Shown here: in pieces, positions 36,739 through 44,506 of the stretch
Numbering within the stretch: the stretch's first letter is position 1
How the letters are laid out: every line of letters begins with the position of its first letter
NCBI RefSeq assembly: GCF_000025325.1
Contig: NC_013743.1
Location: forward strand, 1,922,001-1,986,000
Length of the DNA: 64,000 bases
DNA from: Haloterrigena turkmenica DSM 5511
GTDB taxonomy: Archaea; Halobacteriota; Halobacteria; Halobacteriales; Natrialbaceae
Reading direction: 5' to 3'
Notes under the pieces: model-generated
Database searches by the model: none
Told to the model about the DNA's origin: nothing
The model's input: the letters and a program-made list of their open reading frames with translations, nothing else
Made by a program: the position numbers and the translations under genes

Positions 36739-38127
36739 TCAGTAGAAGTACTCGTCCTCGCGCAACTGGACGTAGCCGCCGTCGCGGTAGGCGAACTTCC
36801 GGCGCTTGTACTCGAGAAGGACTTTCGAAGCGCCCAGCCCGGCGGAGTAGCCGCGGCTGACCAGGCCCTCGACGTCGTCACCCTGCATTCGGTTGACGAT
36901 CTCGAACGTGCGGTCCCAGTCGGCGGGCTCGTACTCCTCGACGATGTCGGCGAAGGCGACGTTGCGCAGGATCTCGTCGCCGATGGCTCCCTTCCAGACG
37001 TCGTTGTAGTTCGCAAGCGAGTCGGTTGCGGCGAGTCGGCCGGCGATCTTCCCGGTGCGGACGGCGACGTGGTAGCCGCCCTCGTGGAAGGCAGAGGTGG
37101 TACCCATCGCGCCGCCGGCGACGGCGATGTTGGCGCCGACGGGTGACTCGATCGGTCGCGTCGAGGAGATCGGGTACGTTTCGGTCCCCTTCGACTTCCC
37201 GCGGTCCTCGACGCGCGGGATGTCTTCCGCGATGTCGTACTTGTCGCCGTACTCGCGCTCGAGCAGGCGCCGGATGTACTCCGCGCCCGAGGGGAGCTTA
37301 TCGTCGTCGGGCTCGAGCAAGGCGTAGGCGGCGGGGTTTTGGACGTCCTCGAGTTCCATCCCGATGGGCATGGTCAGTCCGACGCGGGCGACCGTGCCGT
37401 CGTTGGGGAAGACCCACGGATAGGCGGTCTCGCCGGGCATGTACCCCCACCAGAACTTGAGGGTGTCCTCGAACTCCTCGAACAGTTCCTCCGGGAACTC
37501 TCGGTACTCCTGGTAGGCGATGTGGTTCGCCTCTGGGGGCGAGAGGTAGTCCGAGACGCTTCGGCCGGGCGCGGTGAACTGGTCGAGCGCGTCCAGCGTG
37601 ATTCGTCGCTGCGGGCCGTCCGCGAGGACGACGTACTGGGCCTCGAGTTCGTCGCCGTTCGAGAGGGCCAGCGTGTGAGTCGGTCCCTTCGGGCTCGAGG
37701 CGCGGAGGTCGGTCTCTACGTCCTTGACACCCGTGCCGACCCTGAGGTCGGCGCCGGCGTCCTCGGCGCGCTCGTAGAGCCAGTCGTCCATGCGCGCGCG
37801 GTGGAAGGTGTAGCCGAAGTTGGGGTAGCTGGCCTCCATCCCCGTACTCGTCAGTTCGACCGACGTCGATGGGCCGACGAACTCGGTGGACTCGAGCTCT
37901 CGGAGGATGACGTCGTCGGGAATCTCCCGGTAGTCGAACTCCATGATATCGATCCAGTAGTCGAGCATGCCGGCGGCGTCGGTCGAGTCCGGCCCGAGGC
38001 CGTCGCGGTCCTCCCGCGGGACGCCCTGTTCGAAGAGGACGGTCTCGGCGCCGTGTGCCGCGGCCCGTTCGGCCGCGGAGGCCCCGGCGGGTCCGCCACC
38101 GACGATCGCGACGTCTACGCGTTCCAT
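36739..38127 (-). CDS. geranylgeranyl reductase family FAD-dependent oxidoreductase
   Basis: A 462-residue flavoprotein. The FAD-binding GGGPAGASAAE is at residues 10-20 and the second motif appears as AVAGGAMGTTSAFHEGGYHVAVRTGKIAG. This is the pattern of archaeal geranylgeranyl reductases, which saturate isoprenoid chains of membrane lipids; distant relatives act on other hydrophobic substrates. The central YPWVFPNDGTVARVGLTMP is also typical. Whether this paralog acts on lipids or carotenoid-like compounds cannot be said. It is transcribed alone; upstream (38128-38416) lies the hairpin-rich gap. Confidence 0.85.
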   Translation of the reverse strand: MERVDVAIVGGGPAGASAAERAAAHGAETVLFEQGVPREDRDGLGPDSTDAAGMLDYWIDIMEFDYREIPDDVILRELESTEFVGPSTSVELTSTGMEASYPNFGYTFHRARMDDWLYERAEDAGADLRVGTGVKDVETDLRASSPKGPTHTLALSNGDELEAQYVVLADGPQRRITLDALDQFTAPGRSVSDYLSPPEANHIAYQEYREFPEELFEEFEDTLKFWWGYMPGETAYPWVFPNDGTVARVGLTMPIGMELEDVQNPAAYALLEPDDDKLPSGAEYIRRLLEREYGDKYDIAEDIPRVEDRGKSKGTETYPISSTRPIESPVGANIAVAGGAMGTTSAFHEGGYHVAVRTGKIAGRLAATDSLANYNDVWKGAIGDEILRNVAFADIVEEYEPADWDRTFEIVNRMQGDDVEGLVSRGYSAGLGASKVLLEYKRRKFAYRDGGYVQLREDEYFY

Positions 38128-38196
38128 ACTTCGTTGGGACTCAACGGCCCATTATTAAATTGCCTGAACGTCCCGCTGATTGGAACGGCTCTCGAG

Positions 38197-38314
38197 GCCG
38201 CGCTCCGCGGCTTCGCAGTCTTCTCGCGGGCTGGGGGACGGCGAAGCCGTCCCGTTCGAGGCGGCAAAGCCGCCTCGCAGCCCGCTCGAACGGTACGTGG
38301 AGCGTTGCTCCACG
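38197..38314. repeat. cluster of short hairpins with an outer stem
   Basis: Four perfect inverted repeats with three-base loops: 38197-38211 (GCCGCG-CTC-CGCGGC), 38235-38253 (GGGACGGC-GAA-GCCGTCCC), 38258-38276 (GAGGCGGC-AAA-GCCGCCTC) and 38296-38314 (CGTGGAGC-GTT-GCTCCACG). The middle two are enclosed by an outer 8-base stem, GCGGGCTG 38226-38233 with CAGCCCGC 38278-38285, giving a three-way or cruciform shape. Function unknown; see findings. Confidence 0.8.
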
Positions 38315-38416
38315 CAACTCCGCCTCGAGATCCTGCGGACCTCGCACCGCTCGCGGGCTGTCACAGTGCGTTCCGGGAGACGAACGCTTTTGGGACCGCT
38401 AACCGACGCCACGGAT

Positions 38417-39394
38417 ATGAGCGACAGCGACACCAACCAGCCGGACGTACTCGTCCTCCGGAAAGGAACTCACGGGATGCCGGTCGAACAGTACGCGGAC
38501 GCGCTCCGTGGGCGACTCCCCGATCGAACGGTCGAACTCGCCCGCACGCCGACGGCGGAGCGCGACCGTATTCGAGACGCCCGCTTCGTCACCGGGATGA
38601 CCCTCGAGGACGAACTGCTCGAGGCCGCCGAGAACCTCGAGGTCTTCGCCTGTGCCTACGCGGGGACCGGCCACCTGCCCCTCGAGGAACTCGAGGCCCG
38701 CGGCGTCGCCGTGACGAACGCCTCGGGCGTCCACGGCCCCAACATCGGCGAGCACGTGCTGGGCGCGATCCTCCGCTTTACCCGCCGGTTCCACGTCGGC
38801 GCGCGCCAGCAGCGCCGTCAGAAGTGGCGCCACTATCAGGCCGAGGAACTGCAGGGGTCGACGGTGACGATCGTTGGCCTGGGCGCGATCGGCGAGTCGG
38901 TCGCCGACCGCCTCGAGCCCTTCGGCGTTGAGACGATCGGCGTCCGATACACGCCCGAGAAGGGCGGCCCGACCGACGAGGTGGTCGGCTTCGAGGGCGA
39001 GGGGTTCGAGGACGCCCTGGCGCGGACCGACTATCTCGTACTCGCGTGTCCGCTCACGGAGACCACGCGGGGGCTGATCGACCGCGAGGCGTTCGTGACG
39101 ATGGATCCCGGCGCGGTCCTCGTCAACGTCGCCCGCGGGCCGGTCGTCGACGCCGACGCGCTCGTCGAGGCCCTGCGCTCGAGTTGGATCCGCGGCGCAT
39201 CGCTGGACGTCACCGATCCCGAACCGCTGCCGGAGGACCACCCGCTGTGGACCTTCGAGAACGTCCAGATCACGCCCCACAACGCCGGCCACACCCCCGA
39301 GTACTACGAGCGACTCGCCGATATCGTGGCCGGGAACGTCCGCCGGTTCGCCGACGACCCCGACGCGGCCCTCGAGAATCAGGTCCGGCCCTGA
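38417..39394 (+). CDS. D-2-hydroxyacid dehydrogenase
   Basis: A 325-residue protein. The Rossmann motif GLGAIGESVADRL, the arginine in NVARGPVVDADALVEAL, the glutamate in LDVTDPEPLPEDHPLW, and the His of ITPHNAGHTPEYYER, the four residues that define D-isomer-specific 2-hydroxyacid dehydrogenases, are present. The enzyme reduces 2-keto acids with NAD(P)H, or the reverse. A long frame extends upstream across the hairpin cluster but the natural start is ATG 38417. Substrate unknown. Transcribed alone, followed by a Usp gene. Confidence 0.92.
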   Translation: MSDSDTNQPDVLVLRKGTHGMPVEQYADALRGRLPDRTVELARTPTAERDRIRDARFVTGMTLEDELLEAAENLEVFACAYAGTGHLPLEELEARGVAVTNASGVHGPNIGEHVLGAILRFTRRFHVGARQQRRQKWRHYQAEELQGSTVTIVGLGAIGESVADRLEPFGVETIGVRYTPEKGGPTDEVVGFEGEGFEDALARTDYLVLACPLTETTRGLIDREAFVTMDPGAVLVNVARGPVVDADALVEALRSSWIRGASLDVTDPEPLPEDHPLWTFENVQITPHNAGHTPEYYERLADIVAGNVRRFADDPDAALENQVRP

Positions 39395-44120: not shown

Positions 44121-44506
44121 ACGTCTCGCTACGTACGGGGAGGGTTTATGGATGCGCTTCTTCGGCCGGATTTCTGCGGCTGACCGTCCTCGGTGGCACG
44201 GATGGCCGTCTGTCTCGGAACTGAAACTGACTGTAGAGCGGGAACCGAATCTAAGGCGTGCCGCTCACGCTGACGGTTAGGGATCTCCACGTCCTCCCCA
44301 ACCGACTCGTTCGCTATCCGCGGCGCAAAGCGCCGCGCTCTCGCTCACTCGTCCCTCGCACAATTTCGGCGTCACACGCTCGTAGATATTCGGGTGCGAC
44401 GCCAGCGCGCGCCACCACAGATGGTTTACCGATTCAGAGTCGTACTTCGCTCGTCCCGGTAGTCCTAGAAGAGCACGACTCGAGACGCCCACCGGAGAAC
44501 GCGCGA
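44121..44506. other. gap with a short hairpin; no gene seen
   Basis: About 385 bases between the CitG-like gene and a zinc-ribbon gene. The open frames give unbelievable proteins. The hairpin CGCGGCGC-AAA-GCGCCGCG at 44319-44337, of the same size class as those at 38197-38314, is the only clear feature. The segment GGATCTCCACGTCCTCCCC at 44281 might be the end of something older, but no mobile element is visible. Confidence 0.5.
44319..44337. repeat. short perfect hairpin
   Basis: CGCGGCGC, loop AAA, GCGCCGCG. Same arm length and loop as the third hairpin at 38258-38276; likely the same class of intergenic repeat. Confidence 0.7.

Follow-up and report, generated by a model that had tools for sequence, protein, structure and literature searches.

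The window analysed here, the whole 64,000-nucleotide stretch at positions 1,922,001-1,986,000 of a 3,889,038-bp contig, comes from Haloterrigena turkmenica (genome of 5,440,782 bp in seven contigs). The genome of H. turkmenica 4k consists of one chromosome and six plasmids (PMC3035258). A cluster of short hairpins lies in the window between an oxidoreductase gene and a dehydrogenase gene that diverge from it. Genes were called with a simple codon-usage caller. The copy of the element found at this position, its parts and its neighbours are as follows.

36739..38127, minus strand: left neighbour, FAD-dependent oxidoreductase (Pfam PF07992/PF01266), putatively geranylgeranyl-reductase-like by motif, transcribed away from the element
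38191..38366, minus strand: whole segment, probably transplanted, comprising the element and, at either end, a few codons of the methyltransferase gene (38191-38363 matches G002:C1:3573609-3573781 at 91%; alignment of all alleles)
38191..38202, minus strand: flank with the R-G-L-E codons of the methyltransferase; the G009 target locus has CTCGAG too (allele comparison)
38197..38211, minus strand: hairpin GCCGCG-CTC-CGCGGC (6 bp), partly made of methyltransferase flank (sequence and allele alignment)
38218..38322, minus strand: element core, consisting of hairpin A, an ACC linker and stem 2 with a GA/GA internal loop (covariance model R1)
38220..38233, minus strand: stem 2, 3' arm, CAGCCCGCGAGAAG (second helix of the family structure; sequence)
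38235..38253, minus strand: nested hairpin 2 in the stem-2 loop, 8 bp, plus-strand triloop GAA (sequence and allele alignment)
38257..38277, minus strand: nested hairpin 1 in the stem-2 loop, 9 bp, triloop AAA (absent from short-loop copies, e.g. L033 of G001)
38278..38291, minus strand: stem 2, 5' arm, GTTCGAGCGGGCTG, carrying half of the GA/GA mismatch (second helix of the family structure; sequence)
38296..38314, minus strand: hairpin A, 8 bp with a triloop, CGTGGAGC-AAC-GCTCCACG on the minus strand, plus-strand loop GTT (helix 1 of the covarying family structure)
38326..38344, minus strand: outer hairpin C, imperfect, 8 bp with one mismatch; perfect in the G002 copy (sequence and allele alignment)
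38350..38361, minus strand: flank with methyltransferase codons T-A-R-E (uninserted alleles read TAR[QE]^RG[FL]E)
38417..39394, plus strand: right neighbour, D-2-hydroxyacid dehydrogenase (Pfam PF02826/PF00389), transcribed away from the element

The first-pass annotation had described the cluster as four perfect hairpins of 6-8 bp with three-base loops, two of them enclosed by an outer 8-base stem, and had judged it rare by chance. All four triloop hairpins were present, with stems of 6, 8, 9 and 8 bp, so that the size range was wrong for the hairpin at 38257-38277. An 8-bp outer stem (38226-38233 with 38278-38285) does enclose the middle two. The rarity was borne out, since four hairpins within 118 bp occurred in 0/300 third-order Markov shuffles of the window; for the window as a whole, perfect triloop hairpins with stems of 6 bp or more numbered 56, as compared with 41.8 +/- 6.5 in such shuffles. 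In silico folding, proposed in the same annotation, gave z scores of -4.5 on the plus strand and -6.5 on the minus strand, equalled in 0/200 shuffles. Base composition as the cause of the hairpins was ruled out by the shuffles. The true unit exceeds the cluster first noted, extending from 38191 to 38366, and is best read on the minus strand.

The core of the element is 51-66 bp long and consists of two adjacent palindromes, hairpin A followed by a stem with a symmetric GA/GA mismatch. Weaker blast matches have in common a hairpin, ACC, RTKCGARCGGGY, a variable loop and RCCCGYGAGMAGA; the K/M and R/Y positions of this motif are stem-2 partners that flank the symmetric GA/GA internal loop. With its additions, among them two extra hairpins nested in the second loop, the window copy reaches 176 bp. 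An alignment of 49 short copies (set A1) was assessed for covariation in the 20 pairs of the two helices. Standard pairs occupied 97.5% of cells, a one-column slide of the partners lowered pairing to about 33%, and 103 cells were changed on both sides as compared with 25 in shuffles, such changes affecting 14/20 pairs. Judged from these alignments, the two palindromes keep their pairing through compensatory changes.

G.T pairs were found in 9/906 paired cells (1.0%), as compared with 8/118 (6.8%) in tRNA acceptor stems of the same loci (Fisher P 2e-4), a rough comparison in that the tRNA set is small. Triloops of the GNA/TNC type made up 66-71% of loops, as compared with 12.5% expected; cGNAg triloops are exceptionally stable in DNA. 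The rarity of G.T pairs and the predominance of GNA-type triloops suggest that the element acts as DNA and not as RNA, and we infer from them that DNA hairpins, rather than RNA, are selected or copied.

A genome-wide search for copies, also proposed in the first-pass annotation, was performed with covariance model R1, built from 49 other copies. The window copy scored 53.4 bits (cmsearch; E 1.2e-12 in the window and 9.9e-11 in the whole genome, both rough, as covariance-model E-values are). H. turkmenica carries 53 copies, all of them chromosomal and none on the six plasmids (P about 2e-8 by length), and genomes of the genus carry 29-54. In a sample of Halobacteria, the model matched 91/116 genomes and 37/46 genera. 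The exact core ACCRTKCGARCGGG occurred 15 times in the H. turkmenica genome and was present in 82/101 family genomes, several of the matches lacking the 3' arm, so that full elements are fewer than matches; the reversed reading of this core pattern was nearly absent. A pattern scan of the GTDB collection returned, among the matches listed, haloarchaeal records and one MAG labelled Euryarchaeota. Related copies were found in a plasmid collection, in other Natrialbaceae and in Halorientalis, and the absence from plasmids is thus a feature of H. turkmenica and not a rule. Spread by viruses was considered and set aside: a degenerate core pattern matched six IMG/VR viral contigs (L300-L305), by pattern match alone, and none of the phage records. 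At 44260-44345 of the window, on the minus strand, lies a decayed relative, in which a hairpin CGCGGCGC-AAA-GCGCCGCG stands beside the tail of a host repeat and stem 2 has been lost (R1 E 0.018).

Sites that are filled in some genomes and empty in others were found in several contexts. At IS605-type right ends, the point GAAGCCCCA^CCCTCA is empty in a TnpB element of H. turkmenica, whereas about a dozen other TnpB loci have the element at this point. In about a dozen TnpB loci it lies within the right-end palindrome CCCCACCCT...AGGGTGGGG, and at about a dozen loci 1-6 bp separate it from the 3' end of the tnpB match; in two of the filled loci the TnpB frame runs on through it. A second, longer haloarchaeal repeat carries the element exactly at GAGCG^AATCGG in 47 copies and 11 or 15 bp upstream of this point in 27, and 34 copies have no element within 40 bp, a ratio without meaning since the sample was drawn via the element. 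This longer repeat (GCGAGGGATGAGCGA ... GAGCG AATCGGYTGGGGAGGGYGTGGC ... GTTGCCACGATAGCAG) is a common intergenic host, seen at L315, L130, L111 and L128 and in about 100 other copies.

Protein genes provided two further sites. At FVPD^ in TrpB, H. turkmenica and G003 have about 17 extra codons where most relatives have none, and related inserts are present at the same point in G038, G031, G035 and G044. Uninserted methyltransferase alleles read TARQ^RGFE in G003 and TARE^RGLE in others; G002 carries a long insert, and shortened remnants remain in the H. turkmenica genome and in G005. Comparison of filled with empty TnpB ends and host repeats revealed no obvious target-site duplication. In the methyltransferase gene GAGCG stands on both sides of the insert, but it may belong to the element. 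As read from these alleles, the element has inserted precisely, and with no obvious target duplication, into sites unoccupied in relatives; its mobility is read from its sequence products and not from observed movement.

Outside transposons, the in-gene copies are distributed over about seventeen kinds of gene, and 20/20 have the same strand and codon phase; the three exceptions correspond to TnpB gene ends. Of the other frames of the element, most are open too; the frame used is the most hydrophilic and most acidic of the six and encodes a peptide like DSAExSSADxSSGxxPREE. H. turkmenica has 5/53 copies in genes, all in the shared orientation. With hosts named by Pfam and PDB comparisons, the insert was absent from the PDB homologues of four of them: TrpB (17 residues), DeoC (about 33), TrpA (about 40) and AroC (about 33). 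In the TrxR-like genes L008 and L170 hairpin A has a further hairpin in its loop, and the reading frame is maintained. In genes, selection would retain the element only in the orientation and frame from which a soluble, acidic peptide is made.

Among the readings offered in the first-pass annotation, that of a small mobile repeat is strongly supported by the dispersed copies, by the empty and filled sites and by a sister species that carries 38191-38363 at 91% in a non-orthologous position. We consider it highly probable that the cluster in the window represents a single copy of a small mobile repeat that is built of hairpins, lacks a transposase and is dispersed across the class Halobacteria. 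The element would move as DNA, and an enzyme acting in trans would recognize its hairpins, either single-stranded or as cruciforms; alternatively, it would spread by template switching at the hairpins.

A REP/REPIN-like element moved by a Y1 transposase (RAYT-type or IS605 TnpA), which would act on the hairpin that the mismatched stem forms in single-stranded DNA, is the best of the other readings, and we regard it as unlikely. It is in keeping with the conserved internal mismatch of the hairpin, the DNA-type triloops and the bias towards gene ends, and a Y1 tnpA match adjoins tnpB in two element-bearing IS copies (G072 and G016). However, the number of Y1 transposases showed no correlation with element copy number (rho -0.002), Y1 matches are entirely lacking in eight genomes that carry 9-36 copies, and H. 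turkmenica itself has only a fragment. That fragment, the sole Y1_Tnp match in the genome (G000:C1:1301393-1301506), is 38 amino acids long and contains a stop; some of the TnpB genes are intact.

The position of the element 1-6 bp from the 3' end of tnpB in about a dozen loci could also mean that PATE-like solo right ends, or omega-RNA modules left as orphans, remained after deletion of an IS605/TnpB transposon. This is improbable, since related TnpB elements, including the one in H. turkmenica, share the right end without the element, and no Rfam family matched, the haloarchaeal sotRNA families RF02656 and RF02657 (named in PMC12558985) included. As an identity for the element, an IS605 right end or omega-RNA module was rejected: the H. 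turkmenica TnpB shows an uninserted end, indicating insertion into the end.

Two other proposals of the first-pass annotation found no support. The strong predicted fold (z -4.5 and -6.5) and strong covariation are what a structured non-coding RNA transcribed between the divergent genes would display, but G.U pairs are rare, copies are read through as coding, the contexts are varied, and Rfam scans of the window region and nine loci yielded no family match and nothing credible, making such an RNA very improbable. Least probable of all is a transcription terminator or boundary element, for although gaps bearing the element are more often convergent (50/170 versus 58/382 without it), the window copy lies in a divergent gap, the least favoured place, with no gene end nearby, and efficient termination is hard to square with the copies within open reading frames, in frame in conserved genes.

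The history of the window copy, as a copy of the small mobile repeat, was traced by comparison with relatives. A blast of the spacer against congeners matched 38191-38363 at 91% identity in G002, in a different gene and at a non-orthologous place. Read in the family phase, the window copy gives VTARERCEVRRISRRSCVEQRSTYRSSGLRGGFAASNGTASPSPSPREDCEAAERGLES; this peptide aligns to the insert in the G002 methyltransferase and has TARE and RGLE at its ends. Because methyltransferase codons are present on both sides, the window copy was probably copied from an element within the methyltransferase gene, a few host codons being included; these flanks are short, about 10-12 bp each, and the CTCGAG side could be target-derived. 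The orthologous spacer of G009 keeps both outer parts and differs in the middle, and is not a clean empty site. In G001 and G005 (L064 and L063), the longer repeat replaces the element in the orthologous oxidoreductase-dehydrogenase spacer, in two inverted copies in G001. This spacer has thus been hit more than once and is a recurrent target.

In the stem-2 loop, the window copy and that of G002 share two extra hairpins, which the related copy L033 of G001 lacks. Acquisition of further hairpins by existing hairpin loops, gain rather than loss being the direction we infer, would explain the cruciform-like cluster. Intergenic copies avoid divergent gaps (20/170 versus 149/382 gaps; P 2e-10), and the window copy is therefore in an unusual place. 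It is probably a passive passenger between two promoters.

A search on archaeal palindromic and mobile repeats, mostly of open-access text, gave a Haloquadratum paper (PMC3119063) as the only relevant description, and no publication with the core sequences in a haloarchaeal context was found among the matches listed. An earlier description is possible; as far as the literature search reached, the family is undescribed so far. The SMR-A repeats of Haloquadratum walsbyi (HqIRS42/43/55), the mobilization of which has been called enigmatic, resemble the element in being short, transposase-less and multi-copy, in lacking a target duplication, and in entering near-terminal palindromes of IS605-type elements and other palindromic repeats (PMC3119063). 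SMR-A repeats are about 110 bp long with prominent terminal inverted repeats and have been described from one species (PMC3119063). Unlike them, the present element has a 51-66 bp core and no inverted ends, its ends TAG... and ...GAGCAGA not being inverted copies, and it is class-wide and in frame in genes, which sets it apart by description. We do not claim membership in SMR-A because SMR-A has terminal inverted repeats and the element has none.

The PATE of Haloquadratum are likewise haloarchaeal, non-coding, palindromic, free of target duplication and linked to IS605 (PMC3119063). Their near-terminal palindromes are those of IS605-type transposons, whereas here the element is inserted into such an end and uninserted ends lack it. 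Bacterial REP/REPIN/BIME sequences are similarly hairpin-forming, mostly extragenic and often clustered or mosaic (PMC3116915), but no link to a Y1 transposase and no paired inverted REP organization were seen here, and there are in-frame intragenic copies. MITEs differ in having terminal inverted repeats that match a resident transposon and, as a rule, a target duplication; neither inverted termini nor a duplication was seen at resolved sites.

The Rickettsia palindromic elements (RPE), described from Rickettsia and Wolbachia, share with the element both intergenic copies and in-frame copies in housekeeping genes that encode a conserved peptide (PMC3767692, PMC10969869). They are bacterial and 100-150 bp long; the present family, set apart by description, is archaeal with a core about half that length. 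Membership in RPE is also not claimed, because RPE are described from Rickettsia and Wolbachia; for RPE and WPE alike, the host here is haloarchaeal and not one of the Rickettsiales, and the family was found only in haloarchaea among the matches listed. We suggest, tentatively, that the family could be a class-wide archaeal counterpart of the RPE: a DNA-hairpin element, moved by something other than Y1 and free of target duplication, that prefers palindromes (hairpins into hairpins) and has repeatedly given in-frame peptide insertions to conserved archaeal proteins.

Frequent in-frame invasion of housekeeping genes by palindromes has been portrayed as an unusual trait that typifies Rickettsia (PMC10969869). 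Archaea now show the same outcome, class-wide, and empty sites allow comparison. For annotation, the odd insertions of about 17-40 residues in haloarchaeal TrpA, TrpB, DeoC and AroC are explained. The element also makes testable how transposase-less hairpin repeats move, the SMRs of Haloquadratum being a comparable case, and how proteins gain new peptide segments without loss of function.
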